Part shown: piece by piece, positions 491-24,366 of the stretch | Position numbering within the stretch: the first letter of the stretch is position 1 | How the letters are laid out: each line of letters begins with the position of its first letter | From: Methanobacteriota archaeon | GTDB taxonomy: Archaea; Thermoplasmatota; Poseidoniia; Poseidoniales; Thalassarchaeaceae | Direction: 5' to 3' | Length of the DNA stretch: 41,575 bases | NCBI GenBank assembly: GCA_002702985.1 | Contig: PADI01000026.1 | Coordinates: 1-41,575, forward strand | Notes under the pieces: model-generated | What the model was told of the DNA's origin: nothing | Database searches by the model: none | What the model saw: the letters and a program-made list of their open reading frames with translations, nothing else | Program-made: the position numbers and the translations under genes

Positions 491-3400
491 TTATTCATTT
501 CGCAATAAATCAACTACATCTTGAGGATCTAATTCTTCATGTTCATTCGGTTCGACTTGAGTTGCATCAAGTACTCCACCGATTTCCCAAGGAGATAATT
601 CAATTTCATTATCTCTTCTAGAAATCCAAACAAATAATGATGAAATAATCAATAATATTGATCCTAAGCCAATAACTATTACAAAAATTCCTCCCTTCGA
701 TGATTTTTCTATATCCTCATCTTCAATTATTTCTACTGGTTCATCTGTAATAGTTCCTGTAATATTCATTGGAGTTTCAGAATTCCATGAATCAAATCTC
801 TTCATGCCATCTTCACAAATTATAGAAATATTTACTTCAACCATTGGACGACTAGGAGTCCATTTCACCAATATTTCGCCTTCTAAACTAGGATTTTGCT
901 CCAAGTATAGTATAGTAGAATTTTTATTTAGAACATCAATGTAACACACAACATTATTCAGATCATCTGCATCTCTAACTTTGAATTCAATCTGAATTTC
1001 TTCACCAACCTTACCGTTACTTGGTGTACTGACATTCAGAATCGAAGGGGGTGGAAAAACAATTCTAACGTCTTCCGTCCAACCAGTAGCTAAACCATCA
1101 ATATCCGATAGTATAATCACAATACTTGCATTTCCTTCAATTAAATCTGTAGGAAGATCAATCGAATACATGTATTCTGAAAAAGGGCATCCTTCTGGAA
1201 TCGATGACGATTGTAATAGAGATTCGCTCCAACCAGATTGACGTAAAGAGGGGCGTACCTGTAATATCGGCCTATGTTCATCTATAGGTACAACTAGAAA
1301 CATGGATTCACCTCTAATAAGTTCAGTACCATTTTCTATCGTGACAGTTTCTCCGTTCAAACACAATACTGCCTCATTAACTGATGGGGGTCGAGTTTCA
1401 ATTGGTACTTGGAAGGTAATCTCGGAAAGGCCTGAATCTGAATCAATTGCAGTAACTCGAATCTCGAGATTCCCAGCAGATAAACCTGAACTAGGTAGAA
1501 GTAGGGGTATCCGTTCTGTTGTTCCATTTCCTAACGTCGAGAAAGGAGCAGTAATAGGGGCCTGCTCAGGCCATGTATATTCTATCTGGCCAACAATTTG
1601 AGAAAGGGGAGAATCTGGATCATTTACAGATACTAATATCGATTCGTTACCAACTCCGAAACCAATCATCGATTCGATATTTTCTCGTTGAAATGATGCT
1701 TGTATTGAAGGAAGGAGATTTTCAACCAATACTGAACGAGTTGAAATAATATTCCCATCTGAATCAGATAAACGTGCTAAAAATGGAGACAAGGGCTCAT
1801 CTAATCCAAGTTCCAAAATAGCTGAATAGCATTGGAAGCGGGAAGAATTATCCTTAGGAAGTACTTGTAATGAAGAAATTTCTCCTCTCTCGAATAAGAA
1901 AATAGGTTGTTCATTAATTGGATTATGATCTACGTCTTCTACACATGCTCTAACATATGTAGGCACACCCCTATACATTCCAAAGGGCGTCCCCGATGGA
2001 AGGATGCTGTCCCCTGCCCAAGATGGGTCATCAGCATTTTGAATATGTATACCATACCAAATTGATGGTGAATCAACTACTTCAAGAATCTCCGATTCAT
2101 TAGCATAATCCATAAGTCCGTCAATATCTGTAATCAAAACAAACAGATCATGCATACCGAGAGATGCATATCCGGGAATGTCAAAGAAAATAGTCCAACG
2201 TATTCCATTACCAGAAGTTGCATTTCCTTCAAAAACCATGGATTCATTAGCCCCATTAATTCTGAAAAACGCAGATTCTACTCCAAATTCATCACTAACA
2301 TCAACCCAGCAAGAAACTGTACTTCCTCTAGGAGCTATAGATGATGAACAATCAATAAGATTGATGCTCGGAGGAGCATTGACTTCTACAATAGTAGAGG
2401 CTATATTGTTACTAATTACTCGTTCACTTAGTAAATAGCCTTGGACAAAAGTACTGGAATTTTGTCTCTGTCCATTATTCGCAATATATCTTACTTGTAA
2501 TTCAACAAATCCCGTAGATTCGGTAACCGTTGGAACATTTATTTCTCTTACTGAACCAGAGTGATCTCCGCTAGGTACTGAAATACTGATATTCGATAAC
2601 ACCCTATTTCCTACTCTTTCTCTTACCTCAATCCATCCATTAGCAGGAGATGGTCCAATATTTGCTAAATCAATTTGAACATCAAACGAAGTTCCAACAG
2701 ATGGCCTAGATGATACCGATACATTACGAATCTCAATATCATGAAGACGATTAGAAAATGGGGACATCTTCGGGTCTCCAACTATCACTCCCATCCAAGA
2801 TAGATATCCATTAGATGCAGTATATGATTCTCCTAAATTATACCCTGAAGCATAAAATGAAGTCAACATATCGGGAGATGAAACAGCAGTAAGATATGGT
2901 TCATACACGTATCCTTTGACTCCTGAAACTCCATCTTCCAGAAGATCTGCCACTAAACTCTGTCCATAATCTGTACCCCATGTGAATGATCTTCCTCCTG
3001 TTGATACTGCGGTTTCAGCTATTGAACCATCTACCCATTGCATGTGGGGGCGTAAAATCATAAGTTCGACATTATCAAGAAAAATGGATCCCTGCCTAGA
3101 TATGTTTTGGATTTCTATTTCTAAAGATATATTCAATTTTGTAGCATTTTCATGAGGACGGAATCGAAATTGGCTATTACCCCATGATGTCGCGATTGTA
3201 TTAGAATTTGAATAATTGGTAGAAAGAAGATTGTCGCTTGAATCAAGACCTTCGACCTTCATCGTCCATTCAGCATTAACTTCTCCAATCAATTGGGCAA
3301 CAGAAGATAATGTCCAAGCATGCCCCATGTTCTCTACACCAATTTGATATTCTTGCCAAATTGTACTAGGTCCTTGCCCACTAGCAGAGAAATATGGACA

Positions 3401-5611
3401 ATCTAAAGCAACTTCTCCATTTACTAAAGTGATTTCAGACGAATTAAGAGCTTGAGTCCAAACCTGTACCTCATCGATCAAACCTGACCAATGAGTATTT
3501 CCAGCTCGATTTACTCCGAATTTGTACAAATCAATTTCATCAATACTGCCGTTAGGAATTGTGATATTACCTACTAATATTCCATCCATATATTGCATCA
3601 ACTTATCTCCATCTTTTGCAACTACAAAGTGAACCCATTCAGATGCACTAACCTGTCCAAAATCATAGGTTCGATTGTGATAAAGTTGCCAAACCCCTGG
3701 TGAAGATCCACTTGTCATAATTTGGAATGAATCAGAATCTCCACCTACATCATTTACAGCAATTACAGATGAATATCTACTCTGACCAGTATGATTTGCC
3801 TTTGCCCAAAGAGATATTGTAAAATCGCCAAGACGGTCATCAACATCTGCTTCCAAAATATCATCAATACCGTCTAAAGAAATACAATTTCCTAGTAAAC
3901 ATGTTTGCCAAGTGGGATTTCCTATCATTGTAAGATTATCTTCCCCTACTAAATCCTCAACTATTGTACCATTGCCTGCTTCAAAGTCCCAATGATGAAC
4001 CAAGACATCACTCCTAACTGGAGAACTCAGCGCTCTAGTAAATGATGTGGACGGAATTACCTGTTTACTTTGATTAGGGCCCTCCCAAGAAACAATATGA
4101 CCGGCTCCCCCACCATGTTCAAAAAATTCTGATCTGAAAATATGCTCTCCCTGTTCTAATTCGATAGAACCACTCACTTCTCTCATACCATGTATTCCGG
4201 AATTATTCACGATTAATTCGTCATTTATCCAAACCAATACTCCATCATCAGCATTGGAGTAAAAGGTCCAATTTCCTGCTTCTGGAATTGTCAAGACTCC
4301 AGAATGCCGAACTGAAAAATAATCTGAGAATCTAGAATCTAATCCTGGCCAAAAGGAATTTGATGATGCATAATTGATATTTAATTCAGAGCGAACATGA
4401 TTTGGTACTCTTCCACTCAAATCAGGCATAAAGGAAGAGTTGTAACTTATTCCTTGATTGTCAAAGTATTCTGCAAGTAATCCATTTGTATTCTCTCCAT
4501 TTGTAGCAGAACATTGTGCTGAATTTACACTCAATCTAGCCGCAGAATTGTCCGAATCATAATCCCACTCTAATGTCTCTCCAGCAGAGAAAGTGGAAGT
4601 AGATGATGACCATGAACGAATCCCAGATGATGATGATCCATCTGGTGTATCAAAGCCATTGTCAGGAAGTTGTTGGTTATTCCAAGTATCATCATTACTA
4701 CCCCATGATGCATACATCATCACGTTACTTTCTCCAGTAACAAAAGTAGAATTCTGATTAAATAAAACTGGCATGCCTAAAGTCTCATTTAGATGACTAT
4801 GCGCTGAGTATAGAGCATCATTCCAGAACTTATATCCTGAACCATTTCTATTTGTAGCTAAATCTAAGACCGTTTGTCCATAAGAACCAAAACTATTGTT
4901 CGCTTTATCTATCAGAGAAATTGCAGTATCAACATCATAACCCGTTAGACGTGTTACTATGTAGAACCCTTGTTCAGAACGACGAAATTCTGGTACAGGT
5001 TCAGAAGAAAATTTAGCATATTCATCTCCATTATCATTTGACCAAGGTCCATATTCATGTTCTCCCCAATAAGATCCATGAATTAACGCTCCAAATTGTC
5101 CCGAATCTATGAGAGCTAGTTCTGAATCAAACGATGCGCGAATGTTAGTACCTCCATTTATTCTTAGTGGTACTCCTTTAGTGGTGACCAAATAATTTAG
5201 ATCACCGAAAAGTCCTCTTTGCTGAATCATTAATCGGATAGGATCAGCAAAATAAGTATCAAATTGATCAGAATTTATTGTTTCACTGGTAGGTGTACTT
5301 TCGTTAGTCAAAAGGAAAATCCGTTCAGGAGGAATCCCTCTAGCAGATGCAAATGCATTTCCTATTAATACACTATCAGTACTACGATTATTTATTATAA
5401 TTGCTACATCGCTATAGTTGACTGAAGTAGAATGATGGAATCCCATCGGAACTGCGACTGTTTCATCATTAACAAAATCAGAATAATTGGGCGAATTTAT
5501 AGAATGAAAAACTGAATCCTCAGAATAAATTGTTGACCATGGTGAAATCAGTAACATGAGAAGAAACAGGATTACACTGGCCCCTCTCATTGGCCACTGG
5601 GGGTCTCGCAT
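491..5611 (-). CDS. Giant membrane-anchored surface protein: TIGR03790-like domain with inserted PA14 and LamG domains
   Basis: About 1706 residues from the ATG at 5611; a TTG at 5641 and an ATG at 5590 are alternatives, the last giving the most compact signal peptide. Order: signal peptide (core ASVILFLLMLLISPW, about 11-25); N-terminal half of a TIGR03790-like domain (about 66-306, with DVAIIINNRSTDSVLIG and LVTTKGVPLRI); a PA14 lectin-like domain (about 376-525, NGLLAEYFDNQG, NADDGVLVWIND); a LamG/concanavalin-like domain (about 536-730, HHWDFEAGNGT to LIDEVQVWTQAL); a further beta-rich stretch; the TIGR03790-like C-half (about 859-951, GVSGVKGYVYEPYL, YLSWMGVIVGDP); several Ig/CARDB-like segments; one transmembrane helix (about 1640-1663), RRD stop-transfer, and a 39-residue acidic cytoplasmic tail. 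Many N-x-S/T sequons suit a glycosylated exterior. PA14 and LamG usually bind glycans. The TIGR03790 function is unknown. A role in polysaccharide or particle attachment is inferred. Confidence 0.85.
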   Translation of the reverse strand: MRDPQWPMRGASVILFLLMLLISPWSTIYSEDSVFHSINSPNYSDFVNDETVAVPMGFHHSTSVNYSDVAIIINNRSTDSVLIGNAFASARGIPPERIFLLTNESTPTSETINSDQFDTYFADPIRLMIQQRGLFGDLNYLVTTKGVPLRINGGTNIRASFDSELALIDSGQFGALIHGSYWGEHEYGPWSNDNGDEYAKFSSEPVPEFRRSEQGFYIVTRLTGYDVDTAISLIDKANNSFGSYGQTVLDLATNRNGSGYKFWNDALYSAHSHLNETLGMPVLFNQNSTFVTGESNVMMYASWGSNDDTWNNQQLPDNGFDTPDGSSSSGIRSWSSSTSTFSAGETLEWDYDSDNSAARLSVNSAQCSATNGENTNGLLAEYFDNQGISYNSSFMPDLSGRVPNHVRSELNINYASSNSFWPGLDSRFSDYFSVRHSGVLTIPEAGNWTFYSNADDGVLVWINDELIVNNSGIHGMREVSGSIELEQGEHIFRSEFFEHGGGAGHIVSWEGPNQSKQVIPSTSFTRALSSPVRSDVLVHHWDFEAGNGTIVEDLVGEDNLTMIGNPTWQTCLLGNCISLDGIDDILEADVDDRLGDFTISLWAKANHTGQSRYSSVIAVNDVGGDSDSFQIMTSGSSPGVWQLYHNRTYDFGQVSASEWVHFVVAKDGDKLMQYMDGILVGNITIPNGSIDEIDLYKFGVNRAGNTHWSGLIDEVQVWTQALNSSEITLVNGEVALDCPYFSASGQGPSTIWQEYQIGVENMGHAWTLSSVAQLIGEVNAEWTMKVEGLDSSDNLLSTNYSNSNTIATSWGNSQFRFRPHENATKLNISLEIEIQNISRQGSIFLDNVELMILRPHMQWVDGSIAETAVSTGGRSFTWGTDYGQSLVADLLEDGVSGVKGYVYEPYLTAVSSPDMLTSFYASGYNLGESYTASNGYLSWMGVIVGDPKMSPFSNRLHDIEIRNVSVSSRPSVGTSFDVQIDLANIGPSPANGWIEVRERVGNRVLSNISISVPSGDHSGSVREINVPTVTESTGFVELQVRYIANNGQRQNSSTFVQGYLLSERVISNNIASTIVEVNAPPSINLIDCSSSIAPRGSTVSCWVDVSDEFGVESAFFRINGANESMVFEGNATSGNGIRWTIFFDIPGYASLGMHDLFVLITDIDGLMDYANESEILEVVDSPSIWYGIHIQNADDPSWAGDSILPSGTPFGMYRGVPTYVRACVEDVDHNPINEQPIFLFERGEISSLQVLPKDNSSRFQCYSAILELGLDEPLSPFLARLSDSDGNIISTRSVLVENLLPSIQASFQRENIESMIGFGVGNESILVSVNDPDSPLSQIVGQIEYTWPEQAPITAPFSTLGNGTTERIPLLLPSSGLSAGNLEIRVTAIDSDSGLSEITFQVPIETRPPSVNEAVLCLNGETVTIENGTELIRGESMFLVVPIDEHRPILQVRPSLRQSGWSESLLQSSSIPEGCPFSEYMYSIDLPTDLIEGNASIVIILSDIDGLATGWTEDVRIVFPPPSILNVSTPSNGKVGEEIQIEFKVRDADDLNNVVCYIDVLNKNSTILYLEQNPSLEGEILVKWTPSRPMVEVNISIICEDGMKRFDSWNSETPMNITGTITDEPVEIIEDEDIEKSSKGGIFVIVIGLGSILLIISSLFVWISRRDNEIELSPWEIGGVLDATQVEPNEHEELDPQDVVDLLRNE

Positions 5612-5641
5612 TGGTGTTGAATGAATCGGGTCCAAAACCAA

Positions 5642-8162: not shown

Positions 8163-9701
8163 ATGACATCGAGGCACTCACTTAGGGATCGGGTTTTCTC
8201 AGCCCTCACCATAATAATGGCACTAACACTGAGGGACTGGATTTTTTTTGTATTCTCAATCATAGCTATTTTTTCCGGAGGAATGTTATTCTATTTTGGT
8301 CTAATTTTTCTTAACATATTTGTGATAAGAATACTTGAAAAAGAAGGATTTCTAGAAAAATGGAATGCAACAAAGGTCCTCGGATTTATATTAATGATAA
8401 GAACGAATAAAGGACAAAAAATATTGGAAACAATTTCTCGACCACGTAAATTTTGGAGAATGTTTGGGGAATTTTCAATTTGGATCGGATTCATTGCCTT
8501 ATTTTTCACCACTATGATGGTAATTTTGTCTTTTCTTTCCTTGTTTAATTCAAGTAGAGAAAGAATTTCAATTGAATCATCTGAAGTGTTACTTATTCCA
8601 GGAGTTACTACAGGAATCCCAATTTTCTGGCCAATAATGGCATTAATTGTAGCCTTGATTATCCATGAATATGGACATGGAATTTTAATGAGAGCGCATG
8701 GAATGAGAGTGAGAAGTTTTGGATTACTAATTTTTTCTTTGATTCCAATCGGAGCATTTGCTGAACCGGAATATACTGAGGTTTTGAAAGCACCAAAAAG
8801 AGAAAGGATGAGAATTTATGCGGCTGGACCTGCAGTTAATTTAGTATTCTCAATAATTCTTGTATCTATTTTAGCTGCAGCAATTAATGGAGTCAATCCT
8901 ACTATGCAAGGAGCATATAGTCCAGCAATTGTAGCAGATGGACCTGCCAATGAATCAGGATTAGAGCCCTATGATATCATTATCCAAGTAAATAATGAAT
9001 CTATTTCAAATGCCGATGACTTACGAAATATTCTGGAATCATCAAAGGCCGGAGATATTCTCCTACTTACAGTTCTAAAATACAATGGAACAAACATGAG
9101 TGAATGGGAAGAAGAAAATACAATCGAAGTAAAGTTAGGAGATCAATATGAATATTATCTTTCAAAAAATGCATCAGAAGAGGATTTAGAAAGACTAGGT
9201 ATCTCTCCCAAAGACCCATTCTTAGGAGTTAGAACTGATTCTACAATCGGGCAGAGTATTCGAAGTACTGACCATGGGAAAAATAGATTGATGGGGCCAT
9301 TTTATCCAAATGAAACAGCTGAAGAAAGAGTATTAGCTACTCTGTTATATCCGTTGAATCTACTTGCTACTCCTTTTGAGTTCAATGGAGAGATAATGCT
9401 AGAATCAGAGATAAAAATGCTTGATTTTGGAATTATTGAATTATTCCTTATTGAAGGTATTTTCTGGTTTTTGTGGATTAATTTTTTGTTAGGATTTGCT
9501 AACCTAATTCCTGTAATACCGTTTGATGGTGGCCACATAATGAGGGATACCATTAATTCCACTATCAATTGGATTGCTGACAAATCAGGAATTATTCATT
9601 CTCAGAAAGCAGAGATTCTTGCTACAAAAACATCGAACATTTCGTCACTCTTGTTCTTCTTCGCTTTCCTCATTCCGATAATTTATGGATTGATTAATTG
9701 A
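8163..9701 (+). CDS. Site-2-type intramembrane metalloprotease (M50) with PDZ domain
   Basis: A 512-residue polytopic membrane protein of the M50/S2P family, which cuts transmembrane segments to release regulators or clear membrane remnants. The zinc motif HEYGH is at 168-172 in a hydrophobic helix, and the third ligand motif appears as NLIPVIPFDGGH (447-458, Asp455). A PDZ-like domain lies at about 245-325 (DGPANESGLEPYDIIIQVN), followed by an acidic external stretch to about 385. Two or three extra hydrophobic helices precede the core (about 24-56 and 104-128). ATG at 8163 is used; the ATG at 8217 (Met19) is equally plausible. The last 57 bases overlap the convergent signal-peptidase gene. 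Substrate unknown; S2P enzymes usually act after a first cut by another protease. Confidence 0.88.
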   Translation: MTSRHSLRDRVFSALTIIMALTLRDWIFFVFSIIAIFSGGMLFYFGLIFLNIFVIRILEKEGFLEKWNATKVLGFILMIRTNKGQKILETISRPRKFWRMFGEFSIWIGFIALFFTTMMVILSFLSLFNSSRERISIESSEVLLIPGVTTGIPIFWPIMALIVALIIHEYGHGILMRAHGMRVRSFGLLIFSLIPIGAFAEPEYTEVLKAPKRERMRIYAAGPAVNLVFSIILVSILAAAINGVNPTMQGAYSPAIVADGPANESGLEPYDIIIQVNNESISNADDLRNILESSKAGDILLLTVLKYNGTNMSEWEEENTIEVKLGDQYEYYLSKNASEEDLERLGISPKDPFLGVRTDSTIGQSIRSTDHGKNRLMGPFYPNETAEERVLATLLYPLNLLATPFEFNGEIMLESEIKMLDFGIIELFLIEGIFWFLWINFLLGFANLIPVIPFDGGHIMRDTINSTINWIADKSGIIHSQKAEILATKTSNISSLLFFFAFLIPIIYGLIN

Positions 9702-10613
9702 AGTATCAAATTCGGGAGAAGAAGCGATTATTTTTGTCATTGCTTTTTCTATAATCATGACACTGCTCAACAACACAACCACTGCAATGATTAAACTAGT
9801 CCATGCATCTGAAGTAACTTGACTTGAATTATTAGATGCTGCTAATTTAACGATCCCAAACCATGGAACTTCAGGTCCTGCAAGGCCACTAACCCATTGA
9901 GGCCTTACTGCAGTAACTGGATTCCCAAATTCATCTCTTAATCCAAAATAATGAGGTCCTGAACCGCTATACCCCGTTGCAGTCAATTGATCAATAGTAC
10001 AACCATTAGTCCTTGGGTTATCACCAGAGGTGAGAAATCCTTCATGTTCTGGGATCCAATCTTGAATCATTAAATATCCATGAGGTTGACAAGAATATCC
10101 AGTTAGATTCATACTTATTGAAGTGACATTCAATATTGATGTCCCTTTGACATCCCATGTCAAAATACATGCTCCAATTGATCCATCAGAAGCAAGAAAT
10201 AATTCATCTAATTCTCCTTCAATACAAGTTCCATCATTATCCACAGATGTAGTTTCATTTGCGGATGCAAATAGAATAGCGCGATGTATTACGGGAGTAT
10301 CATTTCCTCCATTCTTCTTGTAAATTATAACATCTCCAGGCATTCCATGAGTAGAATATTCATGATATTGTCCTTCGGATTCAACTGCTTCAGCATAGGT
10401 GACTACTTCGCGTTTTTCAGGTTCTGTGACTAAGATAATATCTCCTGGATCAATAATTCCAACATGTGATTCTTCATCGATCATCATTGACTGAGATTCA
10501 ACTACTACCATCGGAGGTGAAGAACCTGTCATTAGTACTAATGAACCATATAAGACAAAAATCATTCCAGCAGCAAGAAGGATTTCACGAATCCATCCAT
10601 AACTACTGGACAT
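9645..10613 (-). CDS. Signal peptidase I, archaeal/ER (S26B) type
   Basis: A 322-residue membrane protease of the S26B group, which removes signal peptides on the outer face of the membrane. It has an N-terminal transmembrane helix (about 9-28), the nucleophile motif VESQSM (38-43, Ser42), PVIHRAI (107-113, His110 in place of the bacterial Lys), and the conserved SGDNP (196-200) that supplies the acidic residue. The Ser/His arrangement is that of archaeal and SEC11-type enzymes. It is longer than many archaeal relatives, with a cysteine-containing insertion (about 115-190) and a second C-terminal transmembrane helix (about 272-292) followed by an acidic tail. It begins 9 bases after the stop of the four-helix membrane protein gene, so the two probably form an operon. 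The 3' end overlaps the M50 gene by 57 bases. Confidence 0.87.
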   Translation of the reverse strand: MSSSYGWIREILLAAGMIFVLYGSLVLMTGSSPPMVVVESQSMMIDEESHVGIIDPGDIILVTEPEKREVVTYAEAVESEGQYHEYSTHGMPGDVIIYKKNGGNDTPVIHRAILFASANETTSVDNDGTCIEGELDELFLASDGSIGACILTWDVKGTSILNVTSISMNLTGYSCQPHGYLMIQDWIPEHEGFLTSGDNPRTNGCTIDQLTATGYSGSGPHYFGLRDEFGNPVTAVRPQWVSGLAGPEVPWFGIVKLAASNNSSQVTSDAWTSLIIAVVVLLSSVMIIEKAMTKIIASSPEFDTSINQSINYRNEESEEEQE

Positions 10614-11571: not shown

Positions 11572-14500
11572 ATGAGGAGATCGGCAATATTTGTCTTGTT
11601 TCTGTTTATTTCGATGTCTATGTCTCCACTTGTATCAGCTGCAACCACTGAAACCCAATTTGCTGATGGAACAACAACCTTCAGCCATAGTTTCACAAGT
11701 GCTACTGGTGGTGATGCTCAAACACCAGGAATTACTCTCCCATATGGCGCTTCAGTAACTCAGGCAAGATTCTCAATAGAAGGGACTGCACAAAACACTC
11801 AATGGGAAAATCGTTCAACTAATAGCGAATTTGGAGGGGCTGGAACTTCTTCTACTTCATTTACAGGAACATACTTCTCAAGTTGGTATAGGAATAACTT
11901 GAAGGTAGAAAATGATGAAATCACATTAAACACGCAACAATCAACTAATACCAACAATCTTGCTGCTTCTAGAGATTGGGATAGTGCTTCTTCTTCATAT
12001 CATAATACCACAGGTAGATTTGCTGCGAATGGCGATCAAGGATATATTAGTCCGACAATCAGTAGTAACTCCATGACTGTGCCAAATTCAATGAATTGGA
12101 ACTATCCAGGCGCACTGGTTAAGATTGGAAATACGCTATTCACTAGCAATTATCAATCTAGCTCAGTGTATCAAACCCCTGCTATTAATTCATATAATTC
12201 ATCATCTTCAAATGTAGTAAATTCTGTTACTAAGCAATATAATAGTTGTAATACTCAATCATTGTATACTCTGTATGACTTAGCAGCAGATGGAGAAGAC
12301 ACTGTTTGGGCAGTTTCATACAACTATAGAAGGATAACAAAATGGACAGTTTCTGATTCCACTTGGAGTTGTGTAGGTGACTGGACTATGTCTAGTTCTT
12401 CTTCGTACCCAGTAGGGATTGCGATAGATCCTGAAACAGATGATCTCAAGGTATTGGTTCGTTCAAGTTCCGGTTCAATTACCTACAATCTTTGGAATGT
12501 TTCTCGTTCGAATCCTACTACTGCAACTTCAATTACGTATCTAGGTACTAGTAGTACACTTTCTGGAACAATTTCTGGCTTAACCGTTAATTATCCTCGA
12601 ATTATGGTTAATTCGTATAGAAGTTCTTCATCAACTCACTTCGTACTACATAATGCAGGAGCTTGGGTTGACTTTCAGGGTTCAATCACTCTAAATGGAA
12701 AAGGGCATTATGGTATTGCTGATAACGGAGAAGGAGAGGTACTCTATGCATGTTTTTACACAGCAATCACCAGTTACTGTCCATCAACAACATCTAGAAC
12801 TGTACTTTCCTCAGGAATGGGGGCTACATATGAACAGCGTTCTTCTACACAATCTAATAGTATAGCAATTGGATCTACAACAAATCTAGGATCTTCAATC
12901 TCGACAGTTACACTTAGTGGGCTGATTACATACGAGCCTGTTGGGACGTCTGTTGAAATTGAAGTGAGTGTAGATGGAGGGAATTCATGGAAGTCGGCCT
13001 CTCTTAACACTCAAATATCATTCACAAATGGTGGAAATCAAGTAATATGGCGAGCATATCTTAACGGAACAAATAATTCTGTTTCTCCAGTGATTGATCG
13101 AGTACAACTAACATATGTGTCCAGTTACTCTTCTAGTGGATATATTCGAGGTTACAAATATCTAGGCACAACAGGTACTTCTCCTGTAGCTGCAAAGGTT
13201 TGGTGGAATTCCACGACTCCAGGTTCATCTTACTTCGATATGTATTTTCAGTTAGGTTCACAGTACACAGTTCAGAGTTCTGGACAGACTATTTCACTAA
13301 CAGGGAGTAGTTCATACATATATTTCTACATATATTTCTACTCTGGTTCTGGAGGCACTAACACACCAACGTTAGAAGATTTCAATATCCAAATATTTAG
13401 TCAAGCACCACAAAATGTGAAAATGGATATCGGTGATGATGGAAGTAATGAATGGCAAGAACAAGGCACTCTACTTGGAATCAGGGATGTTAGTAATACC
13501 AATATTTTGAATTCTATAAATTCTCAAATTCCAGGTACTGGAGTTGGAACCGTTACTATTCCAATTACACTGTCTTCAACTGCACCTGGACTTGTGAAAA
13601 TTAATTCGTTTGAACTAACGTACACCATGCAAACAGTAAATCTCGATATCATTTGGGAGGAAGGTATGGTTCTTCATGAACGGAGTGAGGCCTACGAAGT
13701 AGTAACTAGACATGTTATCGGAGAAGGTGCTACTGGAATTTCTGGAGCAACTCTAGATTTCGTTGCATCACCTAATTCTGATTCTCCATCTCTTACATGG
13801 TCAGAAACTGGTACGTTAATGGACGACGATCCTGCTGATTGGATTATTCCAATTCAACCTGGACAAGAAGGGGGGACATATACGACAAATAATAACGGAA
13901 TTTTTGAAATCCATTGGAGATTTAGAGTAACTAGTGAATTCCCCGAACAGAATAATGTAGGGTTTAGAGTCACGTGTACAGATGACCAAGGATCAACACC
14001 TGCCATGTTATCTGAAACGGTAAATACAGGAATTATCGTGAATCAATCATATGGTCTTGGATGGTTGGGGGTCAGAGATGCCGAAGGACTAGTTACTAGT
14101 CAAAATCTAACAAATGGTGCTTGGATTTCTGCAGGAGAGACAATTTTCTTCCAAGGACAAATGTGGTTTTCGAATACTGAAGATACCCCATTAAATTCAG
14201 TATTTGATGTACAAATTGCTCAAAAAGGAGAACAGGGGGATTTCGTTCAATCTTCATGGAAAGACCAGAATAATCCAGATGGTTCATTTTTCATTAGTTT
14301 AACAGTTCCTGAAATTGACATACCAGAGGGAATAACATACGAAGTTCAAACATACAATGAAAGGGATTCAACATTAGTTATTCCACCAGGTCCAGATTCT
14401 CGTCGCACATTCTTCATTGATGGCACATCACCAGAAATTACTCACAATATGCCAAAACAAGATGATTATGTTGCTGCAAGATACGATCAATCAATTATTA

Positions 14501-16608
14501 TCGATGTAGAAGATGCTGTTGGAGATCCTAAGGAGCTTACACTCCATTACTGGGTAGAGGCTGATCATGATATTAACCGAAATGGAATCGCAGATTCGGA
14601 TGAATACGTAAATCGAAGTATGGTTAATACAACAACCGCAGAAAGTAAAAGATTCTTCACTACTATTGATGATAGTCGTAATCCAAACTTAGCATCTGTA
14701 TCCTACTATGTAACTGGAAATGACCCCGCAGGTAATCTTTTGGAATCTGGAGAAGGACCTGGATTTTCTTCCGATCTTGCAACATACCGAACTAGAAAAG
14801 ATATGGAATCAGTATTTACTGGACTGCATTGGTCTGGACACAATGATGGAGATGCTATTTTCGCAGGAACTGAACAAACAATTACCACAGGATTAGTGGA
14901 TGCAAATGGTATTATTGATTTTGAGATAATTAGTTTGATTTTCGACTTTGAGGGACCAGATCCAGAAAGAGATAAGCAATCTATTTCTTTTTCAGGCAGA
15001 AACAATACATTTTGGAGCGATTCAGAATATATCGAGATTCTACAAGATAGCAAAGCTACCACAATAAGTAATGACACGGGTCTCCCATGGATTCTAATTG
15101 ATTTTCACTTCAAGGTATCATGGGATTGGCCAGATGAAGAAATCAGTGATTTAGCATTTGAATACAAACAACTTGGAGCTAGTATAAGAAGAATTGAATT
15201 CGTCGATAGAACATTTCATGTGGAAAACGATCTGGTTCTTGATCCAACTAGTTACACGGTCACAGATGTGATGCACCCTCGAGTAGGCCCCATAGATAGT
15301 TCAACATCTATCAGATCTGATGATAGAATTCAGTGGACTGGTCGCGTAGTGTATGAAAATTCTCAAACTCCTCCTCCAAATAATTTAGGAATTGTTGTAG
15401 AGGTATTTGACGGAGTCCAAATGTGGTCAGACGGTAGCCTTACAGAAAATGGAGATTACATGGTAGAAGTCCCATTAAGCGCTGCCCCTACTCTTGCTTC
15501 AGCGGAAACTCGAACTTTCTTGACTGGAATTACTGGAATCCCAGGCAGGGGAGAAGATATGACAAGAGATTCAGTTTCAACCACTTTGCAACTTAGCGTT
15601 GATCATACTCCTCCTAGGGTAATCCATAGGATTCTTCCTGTAGACATAATTGATATTGGAATCCAAGAAGATCTTACTCAAGTAGACGTTGCTTTCTTAG
15701 GAACTGAAGAATGTGTAAATGATCCGTCTGATCAACGATGTTCTGACTTGGCACAAGCTCCTCAACAAGTTCACTGGGTAATGAGAGATGGAACGACAAC
15801 TATCGCTGCAGGATACTCTGTTCTTTCAATGGAACTACAAGGTGACCTAATCCTTTGGACTGGAGCGGTTGATCTTACTAGTGGAGGATTGGTCATACCA
15901 AGAAGTGGATATATCGTTGGATTCTATATCACCGGTGAAGATGCGGCGGGAAATACATTCCCTCAAACTAGTAATAGTGAAAGTGATCCGGTAAGGGAGC
16001 CTACCAATCTGGATAATGATTTAGATCTTGCCTGGGTGACTTTGGGTGCAGATAAGAGTCCTGAGTTAAGAGCAATTAGAATTGATACAAATCAAGAACG
16101 TGTTAGCGTAGGCACTGATGTTGAATTACGAATGTATCTAACCAATTTAGGTGGTCCATTGAATGCTTCTTTCGATGTATCTTTCTTCGCTGGAGATGCA
16201 GCAGAACCATTCAATACCCAACGAATCGATAAAATCGAGGAAGGAGATACGATTTATATCGATGCGATATGGGATGCAGAAGAAGGAATTGAAAGAATAA
16301 GAGTAGTAGTAGATTCAAGTAATGAAATCGACGAAATTGATGAACAGGATAATGCCATTTCTGTTGGAATCGATGTCGCATATGGATGGGGACTTGGATG
16401 GATAGAACAAGCAAGACAAAATCCTCTCACTATTCTTCTTATCGTGATTGCTATGATTGTAGTCCCAACAGTAACTTACGTCAGTATTCGTCAAATGAAT
16501 AAAGATGCAATGGATGATGATTTTGTGAACTTATTGTTTGAAGACGATCAGTATGAAGATGATGAGGATGATGATGAGTACGAAGATGAGGATGGGGGAT
16601 GGGAATAA
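11572..16608 (+). CDS. Giant secreted, membrane-anchored beta-rich surface protein with CARDB-like domain
   Basis: A 1678-residue predicted cell-surface protein. It opens with a clear signal peptide (residues 1-23, MRRSAIFVLFLFISM then SPLVSA). The first 450 or so residues are extremely rich in Ser, Thr, Tyr and Asn and contain propeller-like repeats (DGEDTVWAVSY, ITKWTVSDSTW, GIAIDPETDDLKVLV). Several beta-sandwich-like segments follow, then a CARDB/adhesion-type domain (about 1505-1600, VGTDVELRMYLTNLGG and VVVDSSNEIDEIDEQDN), one transmembrane helix (about 1618-1637) and a very acidic cytoplasmic tail of 37 residues. The architecture parallels the 491-5611 protein. CARDB and similar modules are common in archaeal surface proteins; the ligand is unknown. 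A role in cell envelope structure, adhesion or polymer binding is inferred. The lhr gene follows by 48 bases on the same strand. Confidence 0.85.
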   Translation: MRRSAIFVLFLFISMSMSPLVSAATTETQFADGTTTFSHSFTSATGGDAQTPGITLPYGASVTQARFSIEGTAQNTQWENRSTNSEFGGAGTSSTSFTGTYFSSWYRNNLKVENDEITLNTQQSTNTNNLAASRDWDSASSSYHNTTGRFAANGDQGYISPTISSNSMTVPNSMNWNYPGALVKIGNTLFTSNYQSSSVYQTPAINSYNSSSSNVVNSVTKQYNSCNTQSLYTLYDLAADGEDTVWAVSYNYRRITKWTVSDSTWSCVGDWTMSSSSSYPVGIAIDPETDDLKVLVRSSSGSITYNLWNVSRSNPTTATSITYLGTSSTLSGTISGLTVNYPRIMVNSYRSSSSTHFVLHNAGAWVDFQGSITLNGKGHYGIADNGEGEVLYACFYTAITSYCPSTTSRTVLSSGMGATYEQRSSTQSNSIAIGSTTNLGSSISTVTLSGLITYEPVGTSVEIEVSVDGGNSWKSASLNTQISFTNGGNQVIWRAYLNGTNNSVSPVIDRVQLTYVSSYSSSGYIRGYKYLGTTGTSPVAAKVWWNSTTPGSSYFDMYFQLGSQYTVQSSGQTISLTGSSSYIYFYIYFYSGSGGTNTPTLEDFNIQIFSQAPQNVKMDIGDDGSNEWQEQGTLLGIRDVSNTNILNSINSQIPGTGVGTVTIPITLSSTAPGLVKINSFELTYTMQTVNLDIIWEEGMVLHERSEAYEVVTRHVIGEGATGISGATLDFVASPNSDSPSLTWSETGTLMDDDPADWIIPIQPGQEGGTYTTNNNGIFEIHWRFRVTSEFPEQNNVGFRVTCTDDQGSTPAMLSETVNTGIIVNQSYGLGWLGVRDAEGLVTSQNLTNGAWISAGETIFFQGQMWFSNTEDTPLNSVFDVQIAQKGEQGDFVQSSWKDQNNPDGSFFISLTVPEIDIPEGITYEVQTYNERDSTLVIPPGPDSRRTFFIDGTSPEITHNMPKQDDYVAARYDQSIIIDVEDAVGDPKELTLHYWVEADHDINRNGIADSDEYVNRSMVNTTTAESKRFFTTIDDSRNPNLASVSYYVTGNDPAGNLLESGEGPGFSSDLATYRTRKDMESVFTGLHWSGHNDGDAIFAGTEQTITTGLVDANGIIDFEIISLIFDFEGPDPERDKQSISFSGRNNTFWSDSEYIEILQDSKATTISNDTGLPWILIDFHFKVSWDWPDEEISDLAFEYKQLGASIRRIEFVDRTFHVENDLVLDPTSYTVTDVMHPRVGPIDSSTSIRSDDRIQWTGRVVYENSQTPPPNNLGIVVEVFDGVQMWSDGSLTENGDYMVEVPLSAAPTLASAETRTFLTGITGIPGRGEDMTRDSVSTTLQLSVDHTPPRVIHRILPVDIIDIGIQEDLTQVDVAFLGTEECVNDPSDQRCSDLAQAPQQVHWVMRDGTTTIAAGYSVLSMELQGDLILWTGAVDLTSGGLVIPRSGYIVGFYITGEDAAGNTFPQTSNSESDPVREPTNLDNDLDLAWVTLGADKSPELRAIRIDTNQERVSVGTDVELRMYLTNLGGPLNASFDVSFFAGDAAEPFNTQRIDKIEEGDTIYIDAIWDAEEGIERIRVVVDSSNEIDEIDEQDNAISVGIDVAYGWGLGWIEQARQNPLTILLIVIAMIVVPTVTYVSIRQMNKDAMDDDFVNLLFEDDQYEDDEDDDEYEDEDGGWE
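13316..13339 (+). repeat. Two tandem copies of a 12-base unit
   Basis: The 12-mer ACATATATTTCT occurs twice head to tail inside the surface-protein gene and encodes a repeated YIYF-type strand. Because the unit is a multiple of three the frame is kept. It probably reflects a small recent duplication in a low-complexity, Tyr/Ser-rich part of the protein. Confidence 0.6.
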
Positions 16609-22227: not shown

Positions 22228-24366
22228 ATGGCGAAGGACAAGGCCCCCCTATTGGAGGTGCTCAAAGGACAATGGACCTCCATGTTTGGAATGGCAGGAA
22301 TGTTCACGATTACTATTTTTCTTTCAACACTAATTCAGCCATTTTATGACCGTGATGAATTGCGTGCATTTGGAGCAGCGGGCTCTACAAAGTTATCGTA
22401 TGTTATAATCGAGGGGGTTTTCATCCTAATTTTCACTGCAGGCATAATCTGGTTAGCCAAAAAGAATATGCAGAGATTAATTCAAGTCGGAATTCTTTTC
22501 GTTCTTTGGATTGCATTATCATATAGCCTCATCCCAATGGCCCATCTTGCTATTCCAACTGCTGAACTTACAGCTACCACGTCTGAGACACAATCAGGTG
22601 GACAGATAATTCAAGAGTTAGGAGATACTAATTCTGTGATTTTTTTTGATGGAGATAATCTCATTTCCGTAGATCGTGCAATTGGAACTGATGGGGAATT
22701 TGCAGGTGGTTCGATAAATTGGACGGCAAATATTTCAGAATCCAGAAATGAATCCGTTTCAGTTACTCTAAATGGAAAAATGAACTATCATATTATGTCA
22801 TCAGCGAATGATTTCATAATTTGTGATATGACACAATGGATAAGGATTGATTCTTCAAATGGAGAAATTGTTAACAGATTTGACGACAATTGTCATCTAG
22901 GTTTCGTAGATAATGAAGAATCTGAATGGCAGATTTTTGGACCTATTCTAATGAAAGTAGACGAATTTAAGCCTGTAGAATCAATTGATAGTCCTAGAGA
23001 TAGATCGTGGGAATGGCTCATGCCTGATGAATTTGATTCTATGAATATACTATCTGCAGAACATATTGGTGACAATCACATACTGATCATTTCTAATAGA
23101 TGGGCGGGGGTAATAGAAATTCCAATTGAACCTCATTCTGATGGCTTCAATCCTCCATACATTGAGCCTATATGGAACTTAACTTTAGAAGATGGCAATG
23201 TGTTTACTGCCTCTACGTTTGGTAGTGATACATATGAATATAAGAATAATTCAGCAGAAGAATTTAGTCTATATTTAGGTACCAATAATGGAATCGTAGA
23301 TTCATTTAGAATTAATTCTAATGGTACTGTTGTTGAAAATGAAGCTGTACAATTTGAAGGTGCATTCGAAGGACCAATTCGAGGTCTATTTTTGGAAGAT
23401 TGTTGTAATGGTGGGAAAAACGATCTGTGGGTACTAGATAATGAAAAATTAAGAGTATTCATGGGTAATTCAAAAGTTGAAGTAACTCGAGATACAACAA
23501 TTCCAGGAAATAATTTGGTATCTATGGCAATTCAGTACCCAATTCAAGAAAGATATGCTCAATATAAAGAAGGAGTAATTTTGTTAGATATCAATTCGAG
23601 CTCATTTGATGAACCATTAAAGATGGCAGAATGGAGTTTACAAGACCCTCCACCATTTGAATTTGGAGGATATGGAATTGCTTGGGCAGATATAATTGCT
23701 GTTTCTCTGAGTATTGTTCTAATGGCTGCAATAATTCTACGTCCAGAATGGTATGTAGTTAACACCACAGGTATACTCGTAGGAGCAGGAGTAAGTACTA
23801 TGTTAGGAGTTTCATTTGTTCCTTGGCTAGTGATTATCTTCATGATAGCAATGGCTATTTACGACCATTGGGCAGTTAATGGAAGTAAACATATGCTAAC
23901 ATTAGCAGACACAATGATTGATCTAAAACTCCCGATATTACTTGTTGCTCCAAAAGACAAAGGATATTCATTCCTTGAGGAAGATGATGGGAAAATGGTT
24001 GAAAGAGATAGAATTCACACAACGAATGAACCTTCTAAACCTATACCGAAAGGAGAGAGAAAAACAGCAGATGCAATGTTCATGGGACTTGGTGATGTGA
24101 TTTTCCCTGGTATATTAGTAATATCAGCAATGACATGGTTACCTGACGAAATTGGTTTTGCGGGTCTACATGGACCTACAGCAGTTGCATTTGGAACGTT
24201 GATAGGAGGACTAGTGGGATACATCATACTAATGACACAAGTGGCAAGAGGTAAGCCTCAAGCAGGCCTTCCATTACTCAACGGTGGTTCAATTCTAGGA
24301 TATTTAATTACTACAATTATTGTTCTAGGATTTGATGCATTGGCGTTGAATATTACCCTATTCTGA
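22228..24366 (+). CDS. Presenilin-like intramembrane aspartyl protease with large external insertion
   Basis: A 712-residue membrane protein whose membrane core matches archaeal presenilin/SPP homologues (PSH, family A22). Nine hydrophobic helices are seen (about 20-38, 58-77, 85-109, 484-504, 514-530, 532-549, 613-635, 650-671, 683-705). The catalytic aspartates fall where expected: YD in TM6 (Tyr545-Asp546) and GLGD in TM7 (620-623, Asp623); the AGLPLL segment before TM9 (679-684) occupies the place of the PAL motif. These proteases cut substrates inside the bilayer. Characterised archaeal relatives are about 300 residues; this one carries about 370 extra residues between TM3 and TM4, which by counting helices lie outside the cell. 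That insert is beta-rich with propeller-like repeats. Protease assignment is strong from motifs; substrate and role of the insert are unknown. Confidence 0.85.
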   Translation: MAKDKAPLLEVLKGQWTSMFGMAGMFTITIFLSTLIQPFYDRDELRAFGAAGSTKLSYVIIEGVFILIFTAGIIWLAKKNMQRLIQVGILFVLWIALSYSLIPMAHLAIPTAELTATTSETQSGGQIIQELGDTNSVIFFDGDNLISVDRAIGTDGEFAGGSINWTANISESRNESVSVTLNGKMNYHIMSSANDFIICDMTQWIRIDSSNGEIVNRFDDNCHLGFVDNEESEWQIFGPILMKVDEFKPVESIDSPRDRSWEWLMPDEFDSMNILSAEHIGDNHILIISNRWAGVIEIPIEPHSDGFNPPYIEPIWNLTLEDGNVFTASTFGSDTYEYKNNSAEEFSLYLGTNNGIVDSFRINSNGTVVENEAVQFEGAFEGPIRGLFLEDCCNGGKNDLWVLDNEKLRVFMGNSKVEVTRDTTIPGNNLVSMAIQYPIQERYAQYKEGVILLDINSSSFDEPLKMAEWSLQDPPPFEFGGYGIAWADIIAVSLSIVLMAAIILRPEWYVVNTTGILVGAGVSTMLGVSFVPWLVIIFMIAMAIYDHWAVNGSKHMLTLADTMIDLKLPILLVAPKDKGYSFLEEDDGKMVERDRIHTTNEPSKPIPKGERKTADAMFMGLGDVIFPGILVISAMTWLPDEIGFAGLHGPTAVAFGTLIGGLVGYIILMTQVARGKPQAGLPLLNGGSILGYLITTIIVLGFDALALNITLF

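Follow-up and report, generated by a model that had tools for sequence, protein, structure and literature searches.

The window analysed here, a stretch of 41,575 nucleotides from an archaeon of the order Poseidoniales (contig PADI01000026.1), contains an open reading frame at 22228-24366 (+ strand) for a protein of 712 amino acids. The initial annotation described it as a presenilin-like intramembrane protease with a domain of roughly 370 residues between its third and fourth transmembrane helices (TM3 and TM4). The locus raises the question of what such a domain is, how widely it occurs, and what it might do for a protease to which it is joined in one chain.

The gene product is a PSH, an archaeal homologue of presenilin (peptidase family A22). 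Presenilin itself is a protease that cleaves proteins within the membrane and is linked to Alzheimer's disease. It scored 184.4 bits against the Pfam SPP profile PF06550 (cut-off 23.9) and 222.6 bits against the NCBIfam equivalog NF041679, 'presenilin family intramembrane aspartyl protease PSH' (cut-off 125). Among the PDB sequences, that of the crystallised MCMJR1 PSH (4hyc) matched the protein with an E-value of 1e-30, the match spanning TM4-TM9. The family assignment of the initial annotation was therefore confirmed.

To model the full chain, AlphaFold2 (AF2) was fed with 74 long-form sequences, i.e., sequences carrying the insert. The resulting model (mean pLDDT 79.8, pTM 0.65) contains nine core helices: TM1-TM3 at residues 8-40, 56-78, and 82-108 (22249-22551, +), with which the loop charges given below agree, TM4-TM6 at residues 486-504, 508-529, and 532-552 (23683-23883, +), TM7 at residues 621-637 (24088-24138, +), and TM8 and TM9 at residues 649-673 and 680-700 (24172-24327, +). 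A Foldseek search with the full model returned the PSH crystal structures 4y6k, 4hyg, and 4hyc (28-29% identity) together with beta-propellers, so the predicted model has the nine-helix PSH fold. The motifs noticed initially lie where the family would have them. The catalytic D546 of the YD motif (residues 545-546) is in TM6 (23863-23865, +), the catalytic D623 of the GLGD motif (620-623) is at the start of TM7 (24094-24096, +), and AGLPLL (679-684; 24262-24279, +), the equivalent of the PAL motif, precedes TM9. None of the three varies across the 74 aligned relatives, and we infer that the window protein has PSH proteolytic activity.

Between TM3 and TM4 the AF2 model places an all-beta domain at residues ~116-484, mostly with pLDDT values of 80-95, in agreement with the insertion point originally given for the ectodomain (residues 112-484; 22561-23679, +). 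Modelled alone, the insert reached a pTM of 0.82. Its 28 strands, grouped by an eye count as seven sets of four, fit a seven-bladed propeller. When the insert alone was searched with Foldseek, the matches were BBS7, DDB1, RACK1, BamB, Atg18, and similar propellers, with E-values of about 1e-7. On the sequence level the insert had no significant Pfam or NCBIfam match, and no propeller sequence model was found. The insert is thus predicted to be a beta-propeller, as had been suggested from its repeating strand patterns.

The charges of the loops agree with the proposed extracellular side of the insert. Over the 74 sequences, the mean numbers of K+R and D+E residues were 2.7 and 0.5 in the TM2-3 loop, 9.9 and 10.7 in TM6-7, and 1.5 and 0 in TM8-9, while on the opposite side they were 1.4 and 2.7 in TM1-2 and 0 and 1.0 in TM7-8; the insert itself averaged 14.7 and 65.1. 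As the TM2-3, TM6-7, and TM8-9 loops are the K/R-rich ones, the positive-inside rule places the insert on the exterior of the cell. N-glycosylation sequons were considered as further evidence for an outside location and dropped: their 1.74-fold enrichment over shuffled sequences in the inserts is uninformative, since values for neighbouring cytosolic proteins ran from 0.33 up to 1.95, and that for the PSH core was 2.37. The paired cysteines that had been pointed out in the insert were borne out in part. C222 (22891-22893, +) is invariant in 74/74 relatives, and all 74 inserts have a second cysteine at most 70 residues upstream, as a disulfide requires. In the window protein the probable partner is C199 (22822-22824, +); this position is shared by 35 of the 74 rows, the partner being elsewhere upstream in the others and shifted in Poseidoniaceae. 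The C392/C393 pair was found in only 21 of the 74 relatives and hence is not a general feature.

To examine the occurrence of the insert, 148 genomes from eleven genera of Thalassarchaeaceae were surveyed; a named collection identified this family and its sister family as Thalassarchaeaceae and Poseidoniaceae (Marine Group II). The long form was found in genera g1, g2, g8, and g9, whereas g3-g7, g10, and g11 had a short form (about 350-440 amino acids). A profile of the insert detected 38 genomes, all in the four long-form genera and always within the PSH gene; the 108 genomes of the seven short-form genera gave no hit, and there was no stand-alone copy. In the sister family Poseidoniaceae, 26 of the 29 sampled genomes had PSH frames of 684-902 amino acids (the remaining three appear to be cut), and their insert is homologous to that of the window (hhalign probability 100%, E=3e-50). 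An adjacent family of the class carries a short-form PSH. The presence of the insert in the same gene of 38 genomes, with relatives from independent assemblies, means that it is real and neither a chance product nor an assembly artefact. The architecture, which had seemed unusual for the window genome, is instead typical of the order. Three loci (L087, L089, and L090, in genomes G207, G220, and G173) had frames of 439-476 amino acids lacking the insert; their extra length is N-terminal low-complexity read-through only, probably from wrong starts. Additionally, a long PSH of the Poseidoniales type was present in L192, titled Flavobacteriales bacterium isolate SP95, which is probably a mislabelled or mixed bin.

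The neighbouring genes are also conserved. With or without the insert, PSH is single-copy, and both forms share the gene order Lhr helicase, kinase-like ORF, dCMP deaminase, folC, PSH, serS, biotin carboxyl carrier, and biotin carboxylase (labelled PccB). Long and short forms are therefore orthologues at one locus. Elsewhere on the PSH contig are a site-2 protease (Peptidase_M50 with PDZ; 8163-9701, +), whose 3' end is overlapped convergently by an ORF at 9645-10613 (-) that on visual inspection resembles an archaeal signal peptidase and has no Pfam hit, and a surface protein of 1716 amino acids with laminin-G, PA14, and a C-terminal TM (491-5641, -).

In a tree of the membrane core, the Poseidoniales PSH form one clade (support 100), and in a careful tree the short forms form one clade inside it (100/100). 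Within the order, one change of state is enough in these core-only trees. Since Poseidoniaceae and the rest of Thalassarchaeaceae have the long form, the short one is a secondary loss. Monophyly of the long Thalassarchaeaceae gave an AU p of 0.40, which leaves this inference unaffected. In trees of SerS, biotin carboxylase, FolC, and Lhr the short-form genera again formed one clade, and the loss thus followed vertical descent. Altogether, the trees support a single, secondary loss of the propeller in one lineage. Where the insert is retained, its dN/dS of about 0.1-0.2 among close relatives indicates purifying selection, and in close pairs its dN exceeds the core's by a factor of 1.4 to 3.3. 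It appears constrained yet freer than the core, as would be expected of a selectivity domain. An accelerated evolution of the core after the loss was considered and is not supported: the stem of the short clade is long in PSH (0.58), but the neighbouring genes vary as much (0.12-0.97). At the thresholds used, no fixed core substitutions separated the long from the short forms.

Outside the order, the TM3-TM4 loop also carries a large insert in six further families of Thermoplasmatota (L126-L131, L133, and L134). Whole-domain homology between these and the Poseidoniales insert was not detected (hhalign probabilities at most 39%), and the insert of L128 matched propeller and FG-GAP models weakly, with E-values of 1e-5 to 1e-3 that are below the cut-off. 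Either an ancient propeller has changed so far that its kinship is no longer recognisable, or ectodomains have entered this loop more than once. In a seventh family (f5; genome G292, L132 7174-8289), the same loop holds a DUF11 beta-sandwich of ~105 residues, with 35.0 bits against a cut-off of 24.6, which favours at least two insertion events. In PSH, the TM3-TM4 loop seems to be a place where ectodomains recur.

The window protein shares with the archaeal PSH of Methanoculleus marisnigri (MCMJR1; 4HYC, 4Y6K) the nine-helix core, the YD/GxGD aspartates, and the PAL-like motif. However, MCMJR1 PSH has 301 residues, a short TM3-TM4 loop, and no ectodomain. Gamma-secretase likewise has a large ectodomain outside a presenilin-type core, a position that is predicted for the window protein; there it is nicastrin, a separate subunit of another fold, while here a single chain would carry a propeller. 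The fold of nicastrin is aminopeptidase-like, and no nicastrin was found in the Pfam and PDB sequence searches or among the 50 best fold matches. As the two folds differ, the domains could be equivalent only in function, through convergence. SPPL2 is also an intramembrane aspartyl protease with a built-in lumenal or extracellular domain that affects substrate recognition, but its PA domain precedes TM1, whereas the different domain of the window protein sits between TM3 and TM4. Pfam gave no hit to a PA domain in the window protein, and the modelled TM1 begins already at residue 8. The WD40-type seven-bladed, BBS7, DDB1, and BamB propellers resemble the insert in fold (E-values about 1e-7) at about 10% identity, and to our knowledge none of them is fused to an intramembrane protease. 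Raut et al. (2021; cited in PMC9263693) reportedly dealt with the archaeal roots of these proteases. Close full-length homologues of the window protein are numerous, but the literature covered, on presenilins of archaea, propellers, and proteases of Marine Group II, which included few subscription papers, yielded no account of a PSH that bears an ectodomain.

What the domain does can be approached by analogy. In gamma-secretase, nicastrin is reported to be a gatekeeper that covers presenilin (PMC6551803); in SPPL2 proteases, the PA domains reportedly have a part in substrate recognition (PMC12043953). On these grounds we propose that the propeller, lying above the catalytic helices on their outer face, would pick the membrane proteins that are admitted to the PSH active site, either through steric exclusion or by docking the outer stubs of substrates. 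Its placement over the helices is unsure because the pTM of the full model is only 0.65. That the protein is an active PSH whose outer TM3-TM4 propeller sits atop the catalytic helices and selects substrates has, in our estimate, slightly less than an even chance of being correct. For the core reaction the propeller is dispensable, as seven genera have lost it with the protease intact; MCMJR1 PSH, which has no ectodomain, is proteolytically active (PMC2947513).

The domain could also be a sensor or docking platform, on which the binding of a ligand or a surface partner sets the timing of cutting. Propellers bind many kinds of partner and are common platforms for ligands, and a candidate partner or substrate is encoded in the same conserved gene block: a giant surface protein of 1678 amino acids (11572-16608, +) with an apparent signal peptide, CARDB, a C-terminal TM, and an acidic tail. 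Within Thalassarchaeaceae, its full-length orthologues occur in the long-form genera and in none of the seven short-form genera, and 15 of 17 sampled Poseidoniaceae also have it. This co-loss is, however, a single event in one lineage, and numerous other genes could have disappeared with it; in genus g20 the propeller is present and a full-length orthologue of the surface protein absent, the distant long-form families are without this protein, and no ligand site was identified in the propeller. We consider a sensor rather unlikely. The archaellum, reported in all Poseidoniaceae and half of the Thalassarchaeaceae genera (PMC6461757), resembles the long-form pattern as well, but a link was rejected, since archaellin (PF01917) was not detected in the long-form genus g2 and does occur in the short-form g6 and g11. 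Less probable again is a propeller that serves stability, oligomerisation, or envelope anchoring of an ordinary housekeeping PSH clearing signal peptides and membrane stubs. The single-copy gene does have the same housekeeping neighbours (folC, serS, biotin carboxylase) whether it carries the insert or not, the catalytic core is kept in both forms, and this loop holds unrelated inserts in other families, but a 370-residue domain under purifying selection throughout the order suggests more than a spacer. A dead protease acting as a surface receptor is highly improbable, as the invariance of YD546, GLGD623, and AGLPLL in the 74 relatives speaks against it.

Taken further, the substrate-selecting propeller might be a case of a wider pattern, in which the TM3-TM4 loop is a recurrent docking site for ectodomains such as propellers and a DUF11 sandwich, the Poseidoniales propeller is a functional, single-chain counterpart of nicastrin, and the lineage with the loss runs an ungated enzyme; we regard this combination as doubtful. 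How presenilin-type proteases choose their substrates is an old question, and the four-subunit eukaryotic complex is hard to dissect. Here, a single chain holds both protease and large ectodomain, and among archaea that abound in the ocean, sister genera have orthologues at one locus that either carry the domain or lack it. The long and short forms thus make a ready comparison for what an intramembrane aspartyl protease gains from an ectodomain.
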